The notes below the pieces were generated by a model, which saw only the letters and a program-made list of their open reading frames with translations, made no database searches and was not told the DNA's origin. From NCBI RefSeq assembly GCF_002161445.1, contig NZ_NFHT01000001.1:248001-312000 (forward strand): a DNA stretch of 64,000 nt. Direction: 5' to 3'. Below, piece by piece: positions 16,017 through 53,009 of the stretch (position 1 is the stretch's first letter; every line of letters begins with the position of its first letter). The DNA is from Alistipes sp. An66 (GTDB lineage: Bacteria; Bacteroidota; Bacteroidia; Bacteroidales; Rikenellaceae). Both the position numbers and the translations under genes were made by a program.

Positions 16017-16424
16017 TCAGGAGTCTCCCCGGAAGAGCCTCCATCCTTCCGCGACCTGCCGCATGTCGGCCGGCGTGCCGTTCTCCACGCGCGAGATGGC
16101 GGCCGCAACGGGGATCATGGTCCGGGCGTCGTGCGTGTCGAGTCGTTCGTCGGAGTCGAGGCCCGTGTCGGCGGCCACGGCGCGGATGTAGGCGTCGGTG
16201 TGGTTCTCCGAGGGCGGAGCCCAGCGGGAGATCATCCCCCGGAGGGTGTCGAGCCCGTAGCGGATGCGGTAGGTGTCGAGCAGCACGAAGATGGCGCGGT
16301 AGCCCCAGGCGAGGCTTTCGAACTCCTTGAATGCGGGGTCCCGCGAAGGCCGGACCTCGCCCCGGTAGCGGGCCTTCGACTGCCGGATGTTCCCCGGATT
16401 GCGGTTATCGAGTCCCCGTGCCAT
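16017..16424 (-). CDS. Phage structural protein P5-like / lysin
   Basis: 135-residue protein beginning RGLDNRNPGNIRQS, a signature of the small 'structural protein P5' family found in Bacteroidetes prophages and named after the PM2 protein; relatives are thought to have peptidoglycan-degrading activity. The WGYRAIFVLLDTY and GMISRWAPPSENHT segments are also typical. No signal peptide is seen, so export would depend on the neighbouring holin. It overlaps the holin gene by 20 bases and is the last gene of the cassette. Confidence 0.8.
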   Translation of the reverse strand: MARGLDNRNPGNIRQSKARYRGEVRPSRDPAFKEFESLAWGYRAIFVLLDTYRIRYGLDTLRGMISRWAPPSENHTDAYIRAVAADTGLDSDERLDTHDARTMIPVAAAISRVENGTPADMRQVAEGWRLFRGDS

Positions 16425-16857
16425 AGTCGTCGTCGCGGATTTGGAGGTGGGATTCCATGCGGCGTTTGGCGTAGCGGCGCAGCCAGCGGAAGAGCGGCGC
16501 TTCGGAGAACTGCGCGGCGTTTTCGAGGAACGACCAGAACTCCACGCCGCAGGTGAATCCGGTGAAGAGCTTGGCCAGATTCAACTGCATGAAATCCAGT
16601 ACGAAACGGTCGAGCATCCAGGCCATGGCGATGGCCGTGACGGCGAGTCCCGTCTTGGCGACGGTTCGCCAGGCCTTGCAGCTCTCGAAATACCACTCCC
16701 TGCCTGCGCGCCGGGCCGCGGCCCGGTCGGCGAAGATGCCCGATACGAAGTCCACCCCGATGAAGAGCAGCGTGGTGGCCACGAGCGGGTTGATGGGTGC
16801 GAACAGCGCGGCGATCCCCGCCGCGAGGCCGCTAACGAATCTGAACAAAGCCTCCAT
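16405..16857 (-). CDS. Phage holin-family membrane protein
   Basis: 150-residue protein with two to three hydrophobic segments in the first 90 residues (GLAAGIAALFAPINPLVATTLL, then TGLAVTAIAMAWMLDRFVL, shortened here) and a charged C-terminus. The FIGVDFVSGIFADR motif between them is characteristic of the Bacteroidetes/Firmicutes phage holin 4 (toxin secretion/lysis) family. It would make pores that release the adjacent lysin. The ATG at 16857 overlaps the upstream connector-like gene by 26 bases. Confidence 0.8.
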   Translation of the reverse strand: MEALFRFVSGLAAGIAALFAPINPLVATTLLFIGVDFVSGIFADRAAARRAGREWYFESCKAWRTVAKTGLAVTAIAMAWMLDRFVLDFMQLNLAKLFTGFTCGVEFWSFLENAAQFSEAPLFRWLRRYAKRRMESHLQIRDDDYGTGTR

Positions 16858-17305
16858 CGGTCGTGCAGCGGTTGAGGATGTTTTTTTCGGGGAGGTATTC
16901 CGGGAACTCCCGGCGGTGGCTGTCGAGATACGCGACGGCGCGCCGCAGGAGCGTGCGGGCTTCGCTGCGCAGGGCACGGCATTGGCGGCGGAGCGCCTCC
17001 TTGTCGGCGGGCTGTCCCCAGGAGGATTTCGGCTCCGTGGTGCCGCACTGCCCGGTGCGGATGTCGAGGCGCGGTTGGAGCGCCAGCCGGGTGAAGAGCG
17101 CCGCGGGCGCCGCGAGGTATTCGTCGCGGAATTCGGCATGGGTGCCGGCGAGGAGCTTTTCGTACAGCTCCGGGCCGATCACGGGAACGATGTAACGCTG
17201 TTCGGCTGCGGCGATGTCAGCTTCGCCGAAGGTGTCGGGCGGGAGGTTTTCACCGTTTCCGAAGGCGAGTTTCAGCACTTGGAGGGGTGTGATGAGCGTA
17301 TTCAT
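16832..17305 (-). CDS. Putative phage head-tail connector protein
   Basis: 157-residue, largely helical protein. The N-terminal region (ADIAAAEQRYIVPVIGPELY) resembles small Bacteroidetes phage proteins encoded beside portal and capsid genes, where connector or head-completion functions are expected. No enzymatic motif is visible. The ATG at 17305 is preferred over an upstream start that would add 26 low-complexity residues. Assignment rests on position between portal and holin plus a loose resemblance, so it is tentative. Confidence 0.55.
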   Translation of the reverse strand: MNTLITPLQVLKLAFGNGENLPPDTFGEADIAAAEQRYIVPVIGPELYEKLLAGTHAEFRDEYLAAPAALFTRLALQPRLDIRTGQCGTTEPKSSWGQPADKEALRRQCRALRSEARTLLRRAVAYLDSHRREFPEYLPEKNILNRCTTDGGFVQIR

Positions 17306-17379
17306 GTGCGGGTGTTTTTGCGGAGATCCGCCGTCGTGCGACGCCGGACGATCGGGACCGTCCGGCACCGCACGGCGGA

Positions 17380-18606
17380 TCATCCGATGCTGGTGACGTT
17401 GTATTTGGTGATTTCGGAGAGGAAGTACTGCTGCTTCGGATCCTCGGGGTCGTAGTCGAGACCGTCGGCCTTGCGGGCCTCCCAGACCTTCATGTAGATG
17501 GGTTTCGAGCGGGTCGGCGGACGGTTGACGATCTGCAACGACGCGGTGTCGAGCCCCAGCACCGCGGTGATGACGGTGCGGATCGGTTCGGTGAGCTCGG
17601 CCTGCTCGGCGAGGATCACCGTGTTGAGGGCCACTTCGTACTCGTGGAGGATGCGCTCGGCGTTGAATCCCGAGGCGTAGTCCAGCCCGCTGAGGGTCCG
17701 GAACCAGGAGTGCGCCACGACGATGTCGCCGACGGCCTGCTCGTGCAGGGCCTGCCAGTCTCCCTCGTTCTGGGCGGCGATGGGGATGAACCGCGAGTTG
17801 TCGTCGTCGCCTCCGTCGCGGATGACGAACATCACCTGCCCGGGGTTTCCGGCGAACTTCCGCTCGGCCATCCTTACGATGCGTTCGGCCTCGGCCTCGT
17901 TGTCGACCGACGAGTCGAGCATCATCACGCCCGAGAGCTGGAAGGAGTTGTCCAGGCGCGAGATGTTCCAGCGGTCGGTCTTGTAGGCGATTGCCGAGAC
18001 GTTGAATCCGGCGATGTAGGTCGGGACGCCGTAGTGCTCGAACATGGGTTCGTAATCCTTGTAGTGGATGATGGCGCGGAGGGTTCCGTCGTTCTGTGGC
18101 TCGAAGTTCGGATAGAGGGGCAGCGACCGGGCCTCGGAGGCCTTGAACGCCGACCAGTCGTGGTGCAGGAGGATGTGCTCCGAGTCGCGGGCCACGCGGC
18201 AGCGGGAGGCGTCCTGATGGAAGAGCGAGAGGAACGAACGGTCGGCATCGGTGACGATTTCGAGGAAGGCGTTTCCGAAGAGCGATTTGTCGAAGGCGAG
18301 CTTGTTGAGGAGCTGCCGCAGCGTTTCGCCGCTGCCGTTCACGTCCCGGAGGAAGGCGGCCAGAGCGGGCTGCCGGGCCTCGTCGCAGACGAACCCCTTG
18401 CCCGAGATGTAGTCGGCCTTGTCGTTGATGATGCGGCGGTGGGTGGTCGAACGCCGGGCCATCAGCGCGAGCGCCGCGGGGAAGAGGTTGTCGTCGCCCC
18501 AGCGCCAGAAACGGTCGTTTTCGACGCGCACGGCGCCCAGGGTCAGGTAGGGGTCGGTGCGGTTGGCGACGCCTACGGCGGTTTTGAATTTTTTCGCTTT
18601 GCTCAT
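17380..18606 (-). CDS. Phage portal protein
   Basis: 408-residue protein of the Bacteroidetes phage portal type. The N-terminal region (WRWGDDNLFPAAL, then STTHRRIINDKADYISGKGF) and the later WFRTLSGLDYASGFNAE are typical of portals that form the dodecameric DNA gateway at a capsid vertex. The C-terminal half is helical, as expected for portal stems. Its capsid and protease partners lie directly upstream. No terminase gene, the usual partner of a portal, is found in the window. Confidence 0.82.
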   Translation of the reverse strand: MSKAKKFKTAVGVANRTDPYLTLGAVRVENDRFWRWGDDNLFPAALALMARRSTTHRRIINDKADYISGKGFVCDEARQPALAAFLRDVNGSGETLRQLLNKLAFDKSLFGNAFLEIVTDADRSFLSLFHQDASRCRVARDSEHILLHHDWSAFKASEARSLPLYPNFEPQNDGTLRAIIHYKDYEPMFEHYGVPTYIAGFNVSAIAYKTDRWNISRLDNSFQLSGVMMLDSSVDNEAEAERIVRMAERKFAGNPGQVMFVIRDGGDDDNSRFIPIAAQNEGDWQALHEQAVGDIVVAHSWFRTLSGLDYASGFNAERILHEYEVALNTVILAEQAELTEPIRTVITAVLGLDTASLQIVNRPPTRSKPIYMKVWEARKADGLDYDPEDPKQQYFLSEITKYNVTSIG

Positions 18607-18673
18607 GGCGTATACGGGGTTTCGGGGAAGCGCCGCCGCAGCCGGCGGGGCTGCGGGCGGCGTCCGGGGTTGG

Positions 18674-19654
18674 TTACTGTTTGTAGGCGTAGGTGATCAG
18701 GCTCTCGTCGAGGACCGTGCATCCGGCCATGAAGACGGCGCGCTGGCGGTTCTCCATCTCGTCGGGGTTGTACCACATGCGGACCTCGTTTCCGGGCATG
18801 TCGGCGGTGTTGACGGCCATGACGAGGTTGCGGGTGTCGGTGAGCATGCAGAACGACCGGTGGTAGGTGATCAGGCTTTCGAGATAGCTGCCGATCCGGA
18901 CGTCGATGATCGGGATTCCGTGGTAGGCGAGTCGCGGGCGGCCGTTCACCGTGTCGACGTAGGCGGAGTCGACGCCTTTCGAGTCGAGGTACTTTTCGTA
19001 GAGGTGGCAGATGTCCGAGGAGACGAAATAGGCGAGATGTCCGTCGCCCTTCATGTCCTGAACGCGGGGTTCGGCGTTGACCCAGAGCTTGTCGAGCAGT
19101 TCGGCGATGTAGTTGGGGTCTTCCAGGTCGGTGCTCTGGTAGGTGATGTTGTAGACGGCCTGCTCGGTGACGAGATCCTTGATGATTTTGAGGAATCCGT
19201 CGAAGGTGTTGTACCCCGAATCGGCGGAGGTGTCGCCGATCCACATCGTGGCGCGGATGTTTTCGGCGAGGGCCTGCCGGAAGAGTTCGGTTTCGGCCTG
19301 TTCGAGGATCGTGCCGGAGAGATCCTCCATGTTCGTGTCGGTGATGGCCGCGATCTTTTCGTAGACCATCGAGAAGTAGTCGGCGGCGGAGAATCCGATT
19401 TCGGCCTTCACGCGTTGGAGGTCGATGGCTTTTTCGACGCGCTTGGTTGCGGTACCTCCGGCCCAGCCTGCCGAGGTGAACTTCTGGAGGATGTTGCGCT
19501 GTCCGTCCCAGAGCTGGATATGGGTGGACTGGGGCATGTTGTAAAGGACGCGCACGCCGAGTTCCTGGGCCGAATCGCCGGTCAGAATGGGGCGGAAGAA
19601 GATGTTTTCGAGGTCGGAACCGGTGTACTGTTTCGAATTTTCAAGGTAAGTCAT
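18674..19654 (-). CDS. Putative major capsid protein
   Basis: 326-residue protein placed between the protease and portal genes. Features compatible with a capsid subunit are its length, the N-terminal arm and mixed alpha/beta pattern, and segments such as RVLYNMPQSTHIQLWDG and YHGIPIIDVRIGSYLESLI. I do not see an unambiguous HK97 signature, so the call relies on gene order and the phage context. The ATG at 19654 follows the protease gene by 95 bases, the largest gap inside the cassette, which may carry a strong ribosome-binding site or promoter for high expression. Confidence 0.65.
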   Translation of the reverse strand: MTYLENSKQYTGSDLENIFFRPILTGDSAQELGVRVLYNMPQSTHIQLWDGQRNILQKFTSAGWAGGTATKRVEKAIDLQRVKAEIGFSAADYFSMVYEKIAAITDTNMEDLSGTILEQAETELFRQALAENIRATMWIGDTSADSGYNTFDGFLKIIKDLVTEQAVYNITYQSTDLEDPNYIAELLDKLWVNAEPRVQDMKGDGHLAYFVSSDICHLYEKYLDSKGVDSAYVDTVNGRPRLAYHGIPIIDVRIGSYLESLITYHRSFCMLTDTRNLVMAVNTADMPGNEVRMWYNPDEMENRQRAVFMAGCTVLDESLITYAYKQ

Positions 19655-19749
19655 GGTTTTTGTGTTTTTTTGAGGGTTTATGAATCGGTTTCGGACCGGG
19701 GATTTCCCGCAGTCCGGTATCGTATGTGAGGTTGGGAGGGGGCCGGTCG

Positions 19750-20622
19750 TCAGTTGCGGAAGCATTTGGCGTCTTCGGCGTAGGCGCGTTCGTTGGCCGA
19801 GCGGAGGGCTTCGCCGCAGGAGGGATCCTCGCAGGGAAGAACCCGGGTCGGGGTGATCCGTTTCCGGGTCTCCTGCGCGGCGACGGCCGAACGGCGGTGC
19901 AGCTCCCGCAGTTCGTCGGCGGTGTGGAGGATGTTCCGGTCGGCGGCGGGCTGTCCGGCGGGCTTCACGCCGATCTCGGCGAGCAGACGGCGCCATCCGC
20001 GTGCGAGGTTCCGGGCCAGCGATGCGGGCTCCTGTGCGGCGGTTTCGATCACGCGGTCTGCGAGCCCCGCCTCGACGGCCTCCCGGGGTGAGAGCCATCG
20101 TCCGTTTCCGTTGTTCTCGGCCATGAGGGCCGCGAACTCCTCGTCGGGGCGTCCCGAACGGGCGGCGTAAACCGCGGCGATGCGGGCGTCGGTCTGCCGC
20201 AGGAGTTCGATTTCGCCGGCGATTTCCGCGGCGTTTCCCTCCGTGGCGCAGATCGAGTTGTGGATCAGGTAGAGAGCGTTTTCCGAGATTTCGCGCCCGC
20301 CTTCCGAGGCGGCCTGTGCGATGATCGTGGCAGCCGAGGCGGTGTATCCGTAGCAGCGGGTTACGATGCGTGCGGAGAGCTGGCGGAGGGCGTCGAGGAT
20401 CAGCAGGGCGTCGTTGACATCGCCGCCCGTGGAGCGGATGTTGACCACGACCAGCGGGGCGTCGATCTCGGCGATGCGTTTCAGGGCGTCGCGGAACCGT
20501 TCATAGGTGGCCACGCGGGCGTCGGGGTCATCGAACTGCCACTCTTCGGGGATTCCGATCGTCCCTTCGATGTCGATCTGGCATACGTCGGAGGCGTTGT
20601 TGATTTGGATTTCCGATTTCAT
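19750..20622 (-). CDS. ClpP-like phage head-maturation protease
   Basis: 290-residue protein. Residues 15-190 form a ClpP/crotonase-fold serine protease domain: NIRSTGGDVNDALL gives the oxyanion loop, S96 in GYTASAATII the likely nucleophile, and H121 in YLIHNS the catalytic histidine. The third acidic residue is not certain. Phage proteases of this kind cleave scaffold and capsid arms. The C-terminal 90 residues are charged and may act as scaffold, as in protease-scaffold fusions. Lies just upstream of the capsid candidate and 3 bases after the small helical gene. Confidence 0.85.
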   Translation of the reverse strand: MKSEIQINNASDVCQIDIEGTIGIPEEWQFDDPDARVATYERFRDALKRIAEIDAPLVVVNIRSTGGDVNDALLILDALRQLSARIVTRCYGYTASAATIIAQAASEGGREISENALYLIHNSICATEGNAAEIAGEIELLRQTDARIAAVYAARSGRPDEEFAALMAENNGNGRWLSPREAVEAGLADRVIETAAQEPASLARNLARGWRRLLAEIGVKPAGQPAADRNILHTADELRELHRRSAVAAQETRKRITPTRVLPCEDPSCGEALRSANERAYAEDAKCFRN

Positions 20623-20625
20623 GAT

Positions 20626-20886
20626 TCAGTTTTTGAAGGAGTTGTAAAATGCGTTTCGTGCCTTTTCGTAGGAGCAGCAGAAAGTCTCGGCTGCGACTTC
20701 GAGCGCTTCGCAGCGGGGCACGCCCGACCGCTGCAAACGTTCCACCTCGTCGCGGATGGCCCGGCGTTCGCAGGCCCGGCGGCTGATGAGCCCCGCTTCG
20801 AGGAGTTTGAGTACGGCCTGACGTCCGGTCAGACCCTTCACTTCGCGGAAGAGCGTCTCCGCGAGCCGTTCGTCGAGCCGAGTCAT
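20626..20886 (-). CDS. Small helical (HTH-like) protein of the phage cassette
   Basis: 86-residue, all-helical, highly charged protein. The pattern ACERRAIRDEVERLQRSG then EALEVAAETFCCSYEKARN resembles small helix-turn-helix proteins common in Bacteroidetes phages and mobile DNA. It starts at 20886 with an ATGA overlap with the stop of the 786-residue gene and ends 3 bases before the protease, so it is tightly coupled to structural genes. It could be a regulator or a small structural or DNA-binding factor; I cannot decide. Confidence 0.55.
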   Translation of the reverse strand: MTRLDERLAETLFREVKGLTGRQAVLKLLEAGLISRRACERRAIRDEVERLQRSGVPRCEALEVAAETFCCSYEKARNAFYNSFKN

Positions 20887-23243
20887 GCTTCTGCGATTCG
20901 TTCGAACGTACACCGTGCTGCGCCCTTTTGCGGATCGTACTCTCCGATGCTGCGGAGTGCGGCGCGGACGACTCCGGTCCCGGTGTCGATCCGGAACGCG
21001 GAGCGGATGTCGGGGGCTCCGGTTCCGGGCGAGAAGAGAGCTTCGAACTCGTGGGGAGCGATGCGCAGGGAGACCGAGATCCGCTCTCCGGACTCTTCGC
21101 GCCGCACCTGCCGGTCGTAGAAGCGATGGAGGCCCCGGGCGCCGTCTCGGTCCTCGAATCCCAGCGTGAAGGGCTCCGTCTCATCGTCCCCGGCGAAGAG
21201 GAACGCCGCCAGCGGGTATTCGTTCCGTCCCGAGGGATATCCCCACCGCTCCCCTTCGGGCAGGGCCTTGATGCCGAAGTAGCGGACGATGCGGGGCGTG
21301 AAGTTGGCGCCGTCGTCTTCCGCGTCGTCGCGGTCGCCGACTTGCAGGAGCAGTGCCGAGGGTGCGTTCAGGTAGTGGCCCAGGGAGTTGAGCGTCGGTG
21401 CGAACAGCAGATTCCGGAGCTCCTTTTCACCCCGCAGTGCGGCATAGGAGGGGGTGTCGTGGCTCCATGCTCCGAGGGTGGTCTCCTCTTCGGTGTCGAA
21501 GCGGGTCACGGCGCCGTCTCCGTCCTGAAACCGCCATGTACGGATTTCGTGGATCTCCGGGGCGATCTGCTTCCGGACGATCGGTTGCGAGCGGTCCGTG
21601 CGCCGGCTCCAATCGACCGTCGGGCCGACGCCGAAGAACTCCTCTTCGGGTTCGATCCGTACCGTGCGGGTCTCCTCTTCGGTGTGGAAGCGGAGGTTGA
21701 AGAGATGGGCGACGGCTTCGAGGAGCTCCGACTGGCGGATGTCGTAGCGGACGACGTCCGGGAATTTGACGATTGATCCGAAGGCGGGTCCCGGGAGGAA
21801 GATCGGGCGGAGCGAGCACTCCTTGTGCAGCGTGATCTCCATGCCCTGCTGTGCGCCGGCGAAATAGATCTGATTGAAGTATTTGGGCGATGTGGGGGAG
21901 ATGGTCTCCGAGGGGGTCCGGAGCCGCACCTCGACGGTTGTTTTGCCCGTTTCTCCGATGTATCCGTTGTAGAGGGCCCAGTCGCCCGTGTAGTCGACCC
22001 ATTGGGATCCCTGGAGGATCTGCAAGCTGGGATCGGCGACCGTTCCGTCCGAGGGGGTGGTCACCAGGGCCGAGCGGGCGGCAAAGGAGGTCCAGATGAT
22101 GTCGGTCAGACTGTTGCGGGTATAGAGGAGGCGGTACTGGGCCCCGTCCACGTGGTCGAAGACGATCACGCGGTAGGAGAATCCGAGTGTGATTTCGTTG
22201 CGGAGATCCTGGTAGCGGTTGGCCAGCTGGAAGACGAATTCGGCTCCGGGTCCGAGGTAGAGGGTGTCGAATCCGGTGAGGCGGGTCCGCGAGCGGATGC
22301 GGTGGTCGGTGGTGTATTTCAGGTAGAATTCGAATCCGGCCTTGATCTCCGAGGGGGGCGTGAATACGATCTTTCCGTTGTCGGTGGCGAAGCAGTTGCC
22401 GTTGTTGTAGAGTCCGCTGATGGCTTCGCCGTCGACGTCGATGCTTTGGGGCGTGGCCGTGTCGACGATGTTCCCCACGGTGTTGGCCAGCGCCTTGGGG
22501 TTTGCGGAGACGCGTCCCAAGCTGCTTGCGGCGGCGGTTGCGGGACCGAGCCGGCGGGCCGAGAATCCCATCCGGTTGACGGCTGCGGCGGTGTCTCGCG
22601 AGGCGTAGGCGCCGCTGATGTAGAGCGATCGGAAGAATTCCGAGTCGAGGAACCGGCTCTCGATGCGGTATCCGGCGTCCGAGAATATCTTTTCGACGAG
22701 TGTGGCCAGGTGCAGGAAGGGGTGGTAATCCTCCACGGCGAGGAACCGTTCGGCGGGGAGCAGGTCCGTGGAGCTGTTCTGCTGTTCGTATTCGTCGCGG
22801 TGGACGGGGAAGAAGCGGACGGGCGTGTCGTTCGACCAACTCTGCCAGATGTCCGTCGGTGTCAGCCGGATGTTCCAGTCGATGCCCAGGTCTTCGAGTT
22901 TGCGGCGTACGGCCTGTTCGGCCCAGTCGGCACCGCCGTTGCGGATTTCGAGTTCGAACCCGTTGTCCGTCACGGCCAGCAGGCGGACGCTGCCTCCGAT
23001 CAACCGGGCCCCCTCTGCCGCGAGCTCGGCCCGATGCAGCGAGTCGTTGAATCGTTCGGCCGTATCGGGATCCTCGGCGAATCGGAGGATCGATCGGTTG
23101 CGCTTCGTGATCGGGATTTCGATTTTCAACGACCGTCCTTCGCGTGCGCCGTCGACCGATTCGGTGCTGGCGGCATCGTATCCGGGTATGGCGATCGGAC
23201 TCTCGCCGAGGTCGCAGTTCTGTCCGTCGATTTTCAGTTCCAT
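20883..23243 (-). CDS. Large phage tail/baseplate-like protein
   Basis: 786-residue protein without a signal peptide or enzymatic motif. The N-terminus (ELKIDGQNCDLGES) and a segment near residue 190 (YHPFLHLATLVEKIFSDAGY) resemble large tail-tip or baseplate proteins of Bacteroidetes prophages; the rest is mostly beta-strand, as expected for a tail or receptor-binding structure. The ATG at 23243 overlaps the end of the preceding tail-like gene by 10 bases, and its stop overlaps the next gene by 4. Its exact place in a virion is not established. Confidence 0.65.
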   Translation of the reverse strand: MELKIDGQNCDLGESPIAIPGYDAASTESVDGAREGRSLKIEIPITKRNRSILRFAEDPDTAERFNDSLHRAELAAEGARLIGGSVRLLAVTDNGFELEIRNGGADWAEQAVRRKLEDLGIDWNIRLTPTDIWQSWSNDTPVRFFPVHRDEYEQQNSSTDLLPAERFLAVEDYHPFLHLATLVEKIFSDAGYRIESRFLDSEFFRSLYISGAYASRDTAAAVNRMGFSARRLGPATAAASSLGRVSANPKALANTVGNIVDTATPQSIDVDGEAISGLYNNGNCFATDNGKIVFTPPSEIKAGFEFYLKYTTDHRIRSRTRLTGFDTLYLGPGAEFVFQLANRYQDLRNEITLGFSYRVIVFDHVDGAQYRLLYTRNSLTDIIWTSFAARSALVTTPSDGTVADPSLQILQGSQWVDYTGDWALYNGYIGETGKTTVEVRLRTPSETISPTSPKYFNQIYFAGAQQGMEITLHKECSLRPIFLPGPAFGSIVKFPDVVRYDIRQSELLEAVAHLFNLRFHTEEETRTVRIEPEEEFFGVGPTVDWSRRTDRSQPIVRKQIAPEIHEIRTWRFQDGDGAVTRFDTEEETTLGAWSHDTPSYAALRGEKELRNLLFAPTLNSLGHYLNAPSALLLQVGDRDDAEDDGANFTPRIVRYFGIKALPEGERWGYPSGRNEYPLAAFLFAGDDETEPFTLGFEDRDGARGLHRFYDRQVRREESGERISVSLRIAPHEFEALFSPGTGAPDIRSAFRIDTGTGVVRAALRSIGEYDPQKGAARCTFERIAEA

Positions 23244-24199
23244 GAGGGGTTGTTTTTGGGTCGTACGACAATTTCCAGCGAGCAGAGCATGCCGTGGCGC
23301 TGGATCACGGCCTCTTCGGAGCGGACGTCTACCGGGACGTACTCCCCGTTGCGGAGGATCCACACTTCGGGCGAGAGGAGCAGTCCGGCCAGTGCCTCCA
23401 ACGTCTCCGGAGTTTCGTAGGCGGATTCGAGCACCGTTTCGCGGAGGGACTCCGCAGCCGTTACGAGAAGGCCATCAATTCCTTCGGCGCGCTGCTTGGA
23501 GACACGGAGCGTGGTGGAGCGGATCACCGGGAAGGAGTAGTGCTCGATGGATCCGGCGCAGCTTCTCCACGCGATGCGGAGGGCCTCCTGCGCGGCGGGG
23601 ATGAGCGTGTATGTGACCGTTCCGCAGGCTCCGGCGTCGACCGTCAGGGTTTCGCAGCCGGGGAAATCGCCGGTGTCGAGGCGGAAAACATGGAGTCCGG
23701 CCCCGGCTTCGCGGAAACTCTCGGCCGTGGCGCTTCCTGCGGCCCATCCGGAGACCGTCACGGCGCAGTCGCCGTCGGTCAGCAGGGTCAGTTCGTCGCA
23801 GGCGCCTTCGGGGATGAGCCGTTCGAGGGGCATGGAGGTGCGGATGGCGGGCGCCGTGGCGGGGCCTTCTCCGGGGATGAACGTGCGGGCGGGGGCCGTT
23901 GCTTCGGCGGATCCGCTGCCAGCGGGTCCGGCCTCGACGCGGACGGCCGCCGTGCGGTCCGGGGCGGCGTGAAAACCGGACGCACCGGTCGTCGGGGAGA
24001 ATTGCAGATTCCGGCGCACCACGGGGGCGATGTCGACGTCGGCCGAGACTGTTGCCGTCAGCCGTTTGGCACCGTACAGTGCACCGGAGTTCTCGTCGTA
24101 AATGCGGATGTCGATGTCGGCGGCAGTCTCCTGTTCGACGACATAGCGGACCTCGGAACCGAGGGGCGCATACTGGGGCGGGATTTGGGTGAATTGCAT
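23234..24199 (-). CDS. Phage distal-tail-like protein
   Basis: 321-residue, beta-rich protein and first gene of the cassette. The N-terminus (FTQIPPQYAPLGSEVRYVVE) and the C-terminal region (CAGSIEHYSFPVIRS, then SPEVWILRNGEYVPVDV) are like proteins encoded in the tail modules of Bacteroidetes phages, possibly distal-tail (Dit-like) subunits. The middle (residues 75-130) is an Ala/Pro/Thr-rich linker. No tape-measure gene precedes it; upstream is a 380-base non-coding region, so this is the presumed start of the transcript. Confidence 0.6.
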   Translation of the reverse strand: MQFTQIPPQYAPLGSEVRYVVEQETAADIDIRIYDENSGALYGAKRLTATVSADVDIAPVVRRNLQFSPTTGASGFHAAPDRTAAVRVEAGPAGSGSAEATAPARTFIPGEGPATAPAIRTSMPLERLIPEGACDELTLLTDGDCAVTVSGWAAGSATAESFREAGAGLHVFRLDTGDFPGCETLTVDAGACGTVTYTLIPAAQEALRIAWRSCAGSIEHYSFPVIRSTTLRVSKQRAEGIDGLLVTAAESLRETVLESAYETPETLEALAGLLLSPEVWILRNGEYVPVDVRSEEAVIQRHGMLCSLEIVVRPKNNPSWN

Positions 24200-24330
24200 G
24201 GCGGAAGATTTTTTGGAAGAGAGATGAAAGAGGGGGATGAATGGTTCCGGGAGATGGGAGAGGGGCGGAACGAGGGACGGAAAAGGGCGGAGAGAGCCTG
24301 CGTCGGAGAGGGGTGAGGGAGGGGTCGACC
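24200..24330. repeat. Polypurine stretch upstream of the phage cassette
   Basis: About 120 bases rich in A/G on the plus strand (polypyrimidine in cassette sense), with GAGAGG-like words. No gene is seen. It separates the cassette start from the DnaA-box-like cluster and resembles the tract at 10350-10470. Confidence 0.55.
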
Positions 24331-24333
24331 GTG

Positions 24334-24543
24334 TGTGGATAACGTGTCGAAAAAGTGTTGATAATTGGTAATAATATGCGGCAAGCAGCTTGAAGACAGT
24401 AAATTCCCGATGTCGATAACTTGCCGGAAACCCCGACCGGGGTGTGGATTGCAGGACAAATATACGACGCCGCCTACCCCCTTGTCAAGAGGGCGGCGCA
24501 CTTTTTCCAAAAATTATGGAAAAATTTTCGCAAAAAAGTCTTA
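24334..24543. other. DnaA-box-like cluster with AT-rich stretch (candidate replication origin)
   Basis: Three same-orientation 9-mers share TGTNGATAA: TGTGGATAA at 24334-24342 (exact complement of the DnaA box TTATCCACA), TGTTGATAA at 24356-24364 and TGTCGATAA at 24411-24419. A weaker TGTGGATTG lies at 24443-24451. About 50 bases on, 24500-24543 is a very AT-rich run that could serve as an unwinding element. To the left genes run mostly leftwards and to the right mostly rightwards. By spot counts on the plus strand I see no clear GC-skew reversal, so origin status is only a hypothesis. Confidence 0.45.
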
Positions 24544-24549
24544 CCTTTG
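24542..24549 (+). promoter_or_regulatory. -7 element for the MqnA-like gene
   Basis: TACCTTTG, about 30 bases before the ATG, fits TAnnTTTG. It directly abuts the AT-rich stretch. No clear -33 box. Confidence 0.55.
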
Positions 24550-24579: not shown

Positions 24580-25137
24580 ATGATGGTCACAGTTCCCCGT
24601 ATAGCCGTTGTGTCGTGTTTGAGCACGACGCCATTCATCTATGGTATCCAGCACGAGGGTAATCTCCGTGCCGAACTGCTGTTGTCCGATCCATCCGAAA
24701 TCCTCCGCCTCTTTTCCGACCGTCGGGCCGATCTGGCCCTGATCCCGGCCTCCGCCTACCCGACGCTGAACGGCGCCCGTATCGTCACGGAATACTGCGT
24801 CGGCGGCGTTCCCGGGTCGCTCCCGGAGCTGCTGGCGAGCGACGATCCGCTGGTCGCGGGGTGGAAGCCCTACGGGAAGCTCCCCTGCGCCTTCGCGCTG
24901 TGGGTTGCCGCTCCGGAGGTGGATCCCGAGACCGTCGAAGCGCTGCAACATGCCCTGACCTACGGTCTGGAACACGGTTACGAGGCGATTCTGGAATCTC
25001 CCTACGGAGACGATCCGGGTCGTGCCTACGAAGGACTCTCCCGTTTCGACTACATTTTCGACAATCAGAAGGACAAGGCCCTCAAAAAGTTCTGGGATTC
25101 GGGGCAGAAGGTGGCTCCGAGGAGCAATCCCGGGTGA
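24580..25137 (+). CDS. MqnA/MqnD-family protein with internal deletion
   Basis: 185-residue relative of the futalosine-pathway menaquinone enzyme MqnA (VitK2_biosynth fold). The N-terminal lobe (VVSCLSTTPFIYGI, then DLALIPASAYP and EYCVGG) and the C-terminal lobe (KLPCAFALWVA, then ALTYGLEHG and DYIFDNQKDKALKKF) are recognisable. Normal MqnA proteins are about 250-280 residues; the middle section that follows the CIG motif and contains the SRTS substrate loop is missing, about 60-70 residues. The frame is continuous, so this is not a frameshift. It may be inactive or have a changed role. Start chosen at the first of two adjacent ATGs. Confidence 0.75.
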   Translation: MMVTVPRIAVVSCLSTTPFIYGIQHEGNLRAELLLSDPSEILRLFSDRRADLALIPASAYPTLNGARIVTEYCVGGVPGSLPELLASDDPLVAGWKPYGKLPCAFALWVAAPEVDPETVEALQHALTYGLEHGYEAILESPYGDDPGRAYEGLSRFDYIFDNQKDKALKKFWDSGQKVAPRSNPG

Positions 25138-51859: not shown

Positions 51860-53009
51860 ATTCTTCGAACAAATTCTGGTCTCGTATGGCTGGGAGGGCC
51901 TTGCGCTTGCGGGGTCCATCGTCCTGATGTTCGGCGTACAGCTCTACTATTATATCTTCGTCTACGGTCGGATTCCCGGCTACAAGAACAACCGGCGCGC
52001 GGTGACGCTGGACCGGGAACCGCCGGTTTCGGTGGTCGTGCCGCTGTTCTCGGAGGACTATTCGTTCGTCGAGGAGCGCCTTCCGCTGATTCTGGCGCAG
52101 TCCTATCCGGATTTCGAGGTGGTGATCGTCTACGTGGGCCACGATACGGACTTCTACGAGGACCTCACGCGGCTGAAACAGTCGTTTCCGCAGATCACGA
52201 TGACGAAGATCCACCTGGATCCACGCTTTCCGATTTCGCGGAAGATGGCGCTCAACGTGGGGATCAAGTCGGCGCATTACGAGCACATGATCTTCACGTC
52301 GACGGATGCCGTGCCGCAGACGGACCGATGGCTGTCGCTCATGGTCAAGGGGTTCATGCGGGGGGAGATCGTCGTGGGCTACTGCGGGATCGAGCGGCGG
52401 AAGGGTTTTTCGAACTACCTGATGCGGACGTGGCGGCTGATGCACGCCGTGGACTGGATCGCGCGGGCCGTGCGGAACCGTGCCTACCGGGGGACGCTCC
52501 ACAACTTCGGATTTACCAAAAGGCTCTATTTCGGGGTCAACGGCTTCGGGCACCTGAACATGAACATCGGCGAGGACGACCTGTTCATGCAGCAGGTGAT
52601 GACGCGCGAGAACGTGAGCGTGATCCTCTCGCCGCGGGCCACGCTGCGCGAGAAGGTCTGGGGCGGTCTGGGGTGGTGGATGAGCCAGCTGCGCTACTAC
52701 GGGTCGTCGTTCCGCTACTATCCGCGGCGCGAGAAGACCCGGATCCGCTGGGAGCTGGGCTCGCGGAGCCTCTTCTTCGTGACGGTGCTCTGCGCACTGG
52801 CGGTCATGCCGCCGGAGTTCAAGTTCGGGGCTGCGTTTTTCGTGCTGGTCCGCTATGCGGTCGTGGCGTTCGAGGTCCGCAGGATCGCCGTGCGGCTGGG
52901 CGAGGAGGGCATCACGGGCCGTTACTTTCTGTATGATTTGTTGAGCCCGCTGTGGGCGGCCCTGCTGGGCGTCATGCTGTTGCGTCGGGACGATCGGGTA
53001 TGGAGATAG
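51855..53009 (+). CDS. Family 2 glycosyltransferase, membrane-anchored
   Basis: 384-residue protein. An N-terminal membrane helix (LALAGSIVLMFGVQLYYYIF) leads into a GT-A domain (PPVSVVVPLFSEDYSFVEER, VVIVYVGHDTDF, MIFTSTDAVPQTDRWLS), and two C-terminal hydrophobic segments follow (FFVTVLCALAVM, YLLYDLLSPLWAALLGVML-like). The LNMNIGEDDLFMQQV segment carries the ED motif of the acceptor site. The expected DxD reads TSTDAV, so metal binding may use the single Asp. The acceptor is unknown, likely an envelope lipid or polysaccharide. It overlaps the sigma-factor gene by 10 bases. Confidence 0.87.
   Translation: MRFFEQILVSYGWEGLALAGSIVLMFGVQLYYYIFVYGRIPGYKNNRRAVTLDREPPVSVVVPLFSEDYSFVEERLPLILAQSYPDFEVVIVYVGHDTDFYEDLTRLKQSFPQITMTKIHLDPRFPISRKMALNVGIKSAHYEHMIFTSTDAVPQTDRWLSLMVKGFMRGEIVVGYCGIERRKGFSNYLMRTWRLMHAVDWIARAVRNRAYRGTLHNFGFTKRLYFGVNGFGHLNMNIGEDDLFMQQVMTRENVSVILSPRATLREKVWGGLGWWMSQLRYYGSSFRYYPRREKTRIRWELGSRSLFFVTVLCALAVMPPEFKFGAAFFVLVRYAVVAFEVRRIAVRLGEEGITGRYFLYDLLSPLWAALLGVMLLRRDDRVWR

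Follow-up and report, generated by a model that had tools for sequence, protein, structure and literature searches.

A conserved array of DnaA-box-like sites beside a phage-derived gene cassette in Alistipes

Among the closest described counterparts of the locus reported here are the DnaA-box clusters of Bacillus subtilis, a bacterium in which DnaA is reported to act as a repressor of several operons (PMC4447404). One passage of a review credits six extra-origin clusters with restraining initiation, an effect revealed when all of them are removed, and elsewhere the same review calls their role not significant (PMC5295017). The Alistipes array resembles these clusters (PMC5295017, PMC4447404) in lying away from the origin while being near oriC, the title of Okumura et al. 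(2012) calling the B. subtilis ones oriC-proximal; it differs from them in being a single, helically phased array of near-uniform strand, placed before a phage-derived cassette in another phylum, and in being known from sequence alone. The datA and DARS loci of Escherichia coli are likewise non-origin loci with several DnaA boxes, and they tune initiation; datA is stated to require IHF (PMC5295017), whereas what is known of the Alistipes array comes from its letters. At the E. coli asnC terminator, bound DnaA inhibits passing RNA polymerase (Schaefer and Messer 1988, 1989, as given in PMC10950094). The boxes there lie in a transcribed region and their orientation reportedly matters; those of Alistipes are predicted to be transcribed too and are uniform in orientation, but they would occupy a leader near a promoter rather than a terminator region. 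Finally, Bartonella combines host-kept, phage-derived genes with a possible replication signal nearby, in the form of a gene transfer agent and a run-off origin (PMC2697382). The main text of that paper contains no occurrence of DnaA and, in contrast to Bartonella, the Alistipes cassette comes without a matched terminase or replication gene and without a sign of amplification. A literature search over titles and abstract openings returned no Alistipes oriC and no DnaA-controlled phage cassette in Bacteroidetes.

A same-strand array of boxes conserved across the genus

The DNA analysed here (the window, 64,000 nucleotides) corresponds to bases 248001-312000 of contig C1 (451,071 bp) in the draft genome of Alistipes sp. 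An66 (3,053,716 bp, 53 contigs). The features of the intergenic region and of its right-hand flank are as follows:

24328-24492: conserved element (box array and leftward promoter signature), about 165 bp (profile R1, 118.3 bits)
24334-24342, minus strand: putative DnaA box TTATCCACA (letters, motif scan and matrix scan)
24345-24353, minus strand: putative DnaA box TTTTCGACA, with a 2-bp gap on either side (matrix and letters)
24356-24364, minus strand: putative DnaA box TTATCAACA (letters, motif scan and matrix scan)
24411-24419, minus strand: putative DnaA box TTATCGACA, 55 bp from the preceding box (letters, motif scan and matrix scan)
24443-24451, minus strand: weak putative DnaA box CAATCCACA (contig box scan)
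24457-24464, minus strand: -7 element TATATTTG of a predicted leftward promoter (signature match; consensus TAnnTTTG)
24482-24489, minus strand: -33 region CTTGACAA of the same promoter (TTG 21 nt from the -7 element), within an imperfect palindrome (signature match and letters)
24542-24549, plus strand: -7 element TACCTTTG of a predicted rightward mqnA-like promoter (letters; aligned in relatives)
24580-25137, plus strand: mqnA-like gene (VitK2_biosynth), short form (PF02621, E 1.3e-10)

The three DnaA-box-like sites singled out in the preliminary description are present, in one orientation (minus strand) and within 86 bases. Their clustering is unusual, as had been claimed, but TTTTCGACA and the weak CAATCCACA had been overlooked. 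Because TTTTCGACA falls between the first two sites, the boxes at 24334-24364 form a same-strand triple with gaps of 2 bp, reading TTATCAACA-CT-TTTTCGACA-CG-TTATCCACA on the minus strand, a spacing that matches the preference reported for E. coli DnaA for pairs of boxes separated by 2 or 3 bp (PMC11317965). Only the clustering stands out: the motif is not over-represented in the window as a whole (13 sites with at most one mismatch against 11.98 expected). Scored with a matrix trained on boxes upstream of nadA, at least three same-strand boxes per 340 bp occur at three loci in 2605 overlapping windows of C1 (the array, the nadA side and C1:163.9 kb) and at two loci (the array and the nadA side) in 2351 windows from the fetched part of contig C6 of a second genome, G053, counts that vary with the window grid, a coarser grid adding a G053 locus near 407.6 kb. 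The third place on C1 with three same-strand box-like sites in 340 bp (C1:163891-164400, L010) lies in a low-GC stretch. TTATCCACA is scarce genome-wide (9 occurrences against 20 for a reversed control) and the exact close pair of boxes occurs once against twice for the reversed control, so that a single genome proves little and the case rests on conservation.

Upstream of the mqnA-like gene, the box region aligns in 11 of 13 named relatives. In the remaining two (L061 and L064) the element is found about 1.5 kb farther upstream, and the 1.5 kb lying between it and the mqnA-like promoter, which includes an extra gene, makes the two separable. A sequence-only profile (R1), derived from the window plus these 11 relatives, found the element under strict filters in 51 of the 71 genus genomes that are at least 90% complete, as a single match in 48 of the 51; the sequence-level reading took in all but 16 of these profile-positive genomes. 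In 19 of the 20 profile-negative genomes, the stretch ahead of the first cassette gene holds at least two box-like sites as well as CAAANNTA and TTGTCAA, spaced 24-25 bp; in the twentieth the contig stops before the region. Outside the genus, the same profile returned nothing below E 0.08, whether in two portal-bearing genomes of the sister genus (g2) or in two carriers of the portal that are more distant. Absence of the sites from close relatives had been named beforehand as evidence that would count against a functional element; instead, the array recurs across Alistipes.

Box statistics were gathered with a matrix trained solely on 107 sites upstream of nadA, and the boxes of the array fit this matrix. 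The candidate regions numbered 63 (55 of the 71 genus genomes and eight named ones), of which 60 were kept by their promoter signature, the other three being too short or devoid of it; the regions share ancestry. Among those omitted from the 60 were L120 (the strain's own genome again), L125 (from G103, signature pattern unmatched), L249 (strict pattern unmatched, looser one present) and L268 (contig end). Within 330 bp next to the signature, the cassette coding strand carries 204 boxes and the opposite strand 12, against means of 14.1 and 6.8, respectively, in 40 dinucleotide shuffles, although the shared ancestry of the genomes means that box counts are not independent trials. At least two boxes were found in 58 of the 60 regions (shuffle mean 1.6, maximum 5) and at least three in 50 (shuffle maximum 1). 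Their spacings peak at 11, 22, 32-33, 55, 66 and 77 bp, and the phase resultant of 0.72 at 11 bp is the highest among nine periods compared, a ranking that carries no computed null. With the strict threshold, only 16 of the 60 regions contain a pair 11-12 bp apart and 45 a pair at one, two or three helical turns; with the loose one the counts rise to 26 and 55. In distant members the position and spacing of the array vary and its strand stays constant. Among 1620 control windows of real DNA, which themselves contain elements, 20 hold at least three same-strand boxes; by coordinates, 16 of these are elements, one is the nadA side and three lie elsewhere (L010, L083 and L194).

The phage-derived cassette and the predicted leftward promoter

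Genes diverge on both sides of the array, as initially described: a minus-strand gene at 23234-24199 and the plus-strand mqnA-like gene from 24580. The phage-like character attributed to the genes on the left was borne out by Pfam and PHROG matches of their products, which left three of the genes (321, 786 and 95 aa) unassigned:

23234-24199, minus strand: first cassette gene, 321 aa, predicted to be beta-rich (predicted structure, pLDDT 90.9)
20883-23243, minus strand: cassette gene, 786 aa, start inferred (ORF reading)
20626-20913, minus strand: cassette gene, 95 aa (ORF reading)
19750-20622, minus strand: ClpP-type protease (PF00574, E 5.8e-26)
18674-20098, minus strand: head-protein-like gene (weak matches, phrog_1623 E 1.3e-7 and phrog_212 E 1.2e-4)
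17380-18606, minus strand: portal protein (PF04860 E 7.1e-11, phrog_11226 E 9.7e-21)
16405-17139, minus strand: holin-like gene (PF05105 E 2.2e-10)
16017-16424, minus strand: small endolysin/tape-measure-like gene (phrog_873 E 1.5e-46)

To the left of this cassette (16017-24199) lie comEC-like and then brkB-like genes. A structure search with the 321-aa protein turned up matches of a generic immunoglobulin-like kind, with TM-scores of at most 0.30 among the 50 listed, and the fold of the 786-aa protein is poorly predicted (pLDDT 46.4). Of the 71 genus genomes, 69 have the portal gene. Across the order it occurs in 9 of 247 genomes (the strain's own included); of the other eight, just two, from the same family, exceed 60% identity. 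We note that G284, from another family, encodes two portal homologues at 40% identity (C3:313319-314443 and C8:93015-94148), possible kin of the phage from which the cassette came. In 19 of the 20 neighbourhoods fetched, the element borders on cassette genes (in L177 on the first three only), which upholds the proposed link between array and cassette as an association, and corA lies across the element from the cassette in 17 of the 20. Host-kept phage structural genes, as expected of a gene transfer agent, are represented by the portal (69/71) and by a gene order kept, at least partly, in 19/20. Since cassette gene order is kept genus-wide, a recent prophage insertion was dropped as an explanation, and we take the cassette to be a vertically kept, domesticated phage locus. 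Among the cassette proteins compared with Pfam and PHROG there was no match to a replication gene, a regulator gene or a terminase; phrog_2, the terminase family that the wider search covered, gave one weak match elsewhere (21.4 bits, C53).

To the right of the boxes, the selected regions carry CAAATATA (in one region CAAAGATA) followed at near-constant distance by TTGTCAAG. Read on the minus strand, this signature becomes TTG, 21 nt and TATATTTG, which resembles the -33 (TTTG) and -7 (TAnnTTTG) elements described for Bacteroidetes promoters (PMC7366714). A scan of 1.65 Mb from the strain and its relatives found the form CAAATATA...TTGTCAAG three times, each time at the element, with one looser match elsewhere. 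These features point to a Bacteroidetes-type promoter within the element and directed at the cassette. Boxes lie at or downstream of the signature in 60 of the 63 candidate regions, the 60 having been selected for that signature. With a predicted start near 24450 and the first cassette gene starting at 24199, the boxes would fall inside the leader of that gene; the distance from the promoter to the first recognised cassette gene varies, exceeding 1 kb in some genomes, so that a different transcript may be the target.

An imperfect palindrome, CCCCTTGTCAAGAGG (24479-24492), overlaps the -33 region and is near-invariant in close relatives; it may be an operator for another regulator. An Rfam scan of the window gave no family at the gathering score, the matches near the array being all sub-threshold, and a tRNA scan found none; a known non-coding RNA was accordingly dropped as a candidate.

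On the other side, the mqnA-like protein is short, lacking about 70 middle residues of the usual 259-aa form, as it does in at least 10 relatives, and the named records with mqnA-like relatives all belong to Alistipes or Rikenellaceae (26 loci). In three regions (L175, L183 and L185) the element stays beside the cassette, and mqnA and corA were not found on its right (L185 ends at the contig edge). Together with the 1.5 kb that separates element and mqnA in L061 and L064, this led us to reject the notion that the array is merely part of the mqnA promoter.

The conserved cis element is well supported, and it is probably bound by DnaA. In our judgement it is slightly more likely than not an origin-proximal DnaA-box array that forms part of the control region for the domesticated head/lysis cassette of phage descent, whose expression it would regulate; perhaps it also titrates DnaA. 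The leftward promoter (TTG, 21 nt, TATATTTG, minus strand) would fire toward the cassette, and the boxes, helically phased, would occupy the first 120 nt or so of the predicted leader in the direction of transcription. Cooperative loading of DnaA on the boxes would then keep the cassette repressed, the simplest route being a block to the elongating RNA polymerase, and cassette expression would track DnaA and the replication state of the cell, while an array this near oriC would also sequester some DnaA. The orientation or directionality of such a block is said to matter, as the title of a 1989 study by Schaefer and Messer has it. Against this reading stand the small share of regions with a pair 11-12 bp apart, the variable distance from promoter to first recognised cassette gene, the array kept without a cassette in G122 and the lack of a significant profile match in the sister genus.

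Position relative to the chromosomal origin and alternative readings

The preliminary description had raised the possibility that the array is the chromosomal origin and had proposed the cumulative GC-skew minimum as a check, a distant minimum counting against the idea. On C1 (first 8 kb excluded), this minimum falls at C1:213395, 59 kb from the array; skew is mostly negative over the first 213 kb or so, whereas all 8-kb tiles from 216 kb are positive, if only barely as far as about 256 kb. Next to the minimum, at C1:214367-214570 (L013:6367-6570), lies the highest-scoring box cluster on the contig, in an AT-rich intergenic region upstream of nadA whose flanking ORFs, as read from their translations, are mrp-like and nadA. 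In G053, the skew minimum of the fetched 400 kb is at 391102, the orthologous nadA-side cluster at 392175-392331 and the element at 514247. On the G103 contig C5 (3,788,833 bp), sampled in 20-kb tiles, skew is negative to 1.16 Mb, positive from 1.33 to 1.92 Mb and mixed thereafter; nadA (1.199 Mb) lies between the two tiles that bracket the sampled sign change, and the element at 1.108 Mb. Skew does not change sign at the element on C1, in G053 or in G085, the last showing no inflection near it, and in the single-contig G124 the sampled skew is so patchy that it does not locate an origin. G085 and G124, like the skew maximum of G062 described below, fit no simple picture. The best dnaA match of the genome lies on another contig (C17). 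C1:214367-214570, the strongest box cluster of the contig and beside the skew minimum, is the probable oriC of the strain, at the same place as in G053.

The AT-rich run noted beside the array exists but is modest: computed per 40 bp, GC drops no lower than 0.275 across array and promoter and 0.225 on their right, whereas upstream of nadA it falls to 0.05. Across genomes, the corresponding medians are 0.26 (range 0.075-0.40, 60 regions) and 0.21, against 0.05 in 29 nadA-upstream regions, four of which have no AT-rich stretch and mostly no boxes (one of 30 was too short).

The DnaA-titration or regulatory site that the preliminary description also offered is backed by the conservation, strand bias, phasing and position of the array, DnaA binding being putative. 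A pure titration or inactivation locus, similar to the B. subtilis clusters or to datA, would time initiation and have the cassette as a mere neighbour; we regard this as unlikely. In its favor, the array is intergenic and lies outside but near the probable oriC, as extra-origin clusters do. Element and nadA were both placed in 43 genomes; in the 15 that have them on one contig they are 20 to 143 kb apart, a sample biased to short distances, with 58 kb in the strain's own genome and 91 kb (G103) and 109 kb (G124) on whole-chromosome contigs. In the 28 others they are on different contigs, which weakens the case. One genome, G122, keeps the array and has lost the cassette, the break falling at the array's left edge. 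Compared with G132, its array is identical at 61 of 63 positions, its box-free spacer at 24 of 34 and its third box at 8 of 10, whereas the right-hand gene shows differences at 47 of its 300 third codon positions compared (P 0.0017). An array without a cassette leaves a host role possible, but the loss may be recent, and the pattern suggests either. Against titration, the array accompanies the cassette and a cassette-directed promoter in 19 of 20 neighbourhoods, L175, L183 and L185 retain the array with the cassette where mqnA and corA were not found opposite, and the role of the B. subtilis clusters has itself been called not significant in the review cited above.

It is quite improbable that a protein other than DnaA binds the repeats, such as a helix-turn-helix regulator of phage or host origin with a site that happens to be DnaA-box-like. 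Direct, phased repeats adjoining a promoter are typical of operators, and the palindrome overlapping the -33 region would fit such a regulator as well. The identical 9-mers, however, build the nadA-upstream cluster at the skew minimum, and none of the cassette proteins compared matched a regulator.

We consider it highly doubtful that the element is a secondary, phage-derived origin that amplifies the cassette region in the manner proposed for the Bartonella run-off origin. The phasing of the boxes, their place next to a promoter and phage genes, and the linkage in 19 of 20 neighbourhoods are compatible with it, and a phage-derived origin can accompany the gene transfer agent of Bartonella (PMC2697382). 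Of the cassette-linked origin envisaged at the outset, it is the link to the cassette that stood; a very AT-rich stretch comparable to that upstream of nadA and, among the cassette proteins compared, a matched replication gene were both missing, and skew keeps its sign at the element in the three genomes named above.

That the array is itself the chromosomal origin is extremely improbable and was dropped: phased boxes in a conserved intergenic region, the single profile match in 48 of 51 genomes, the proximity to the skew-supported origin and a skew extremum at the element in G062 (contig C4, position 52532, within the element at 52497-52661, L101; nadA on a different contig) speak for it, but that extremum is a maximum and terminus-like, and the skew minimum, a stronger AT-rich cluster and the very AT-rich stretch expected of an unwinding element are all found upstream of nadA.

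Implications for the genus

The proposed regulation of the cassette by an origin-proximal DnaA-box array replaces the origin call with a reading that can be tested. The skew analysis also yields a concrete candidate for the Alistipes oriC, the mrp-nadA intergenic region, which helps estimates of replication rate from metagenomes. More tentatively, and with considerable reserve, the genus may have placed its domesticated phage head/lysis cassette under direct DnaA control, such that the making or release of particles, or lysis, would be gated by replication state. Should the cassette indeed answer to DnaA, phage genes captured by a common gut genus would, genus-wide, be tied directly to the replication control of their host.
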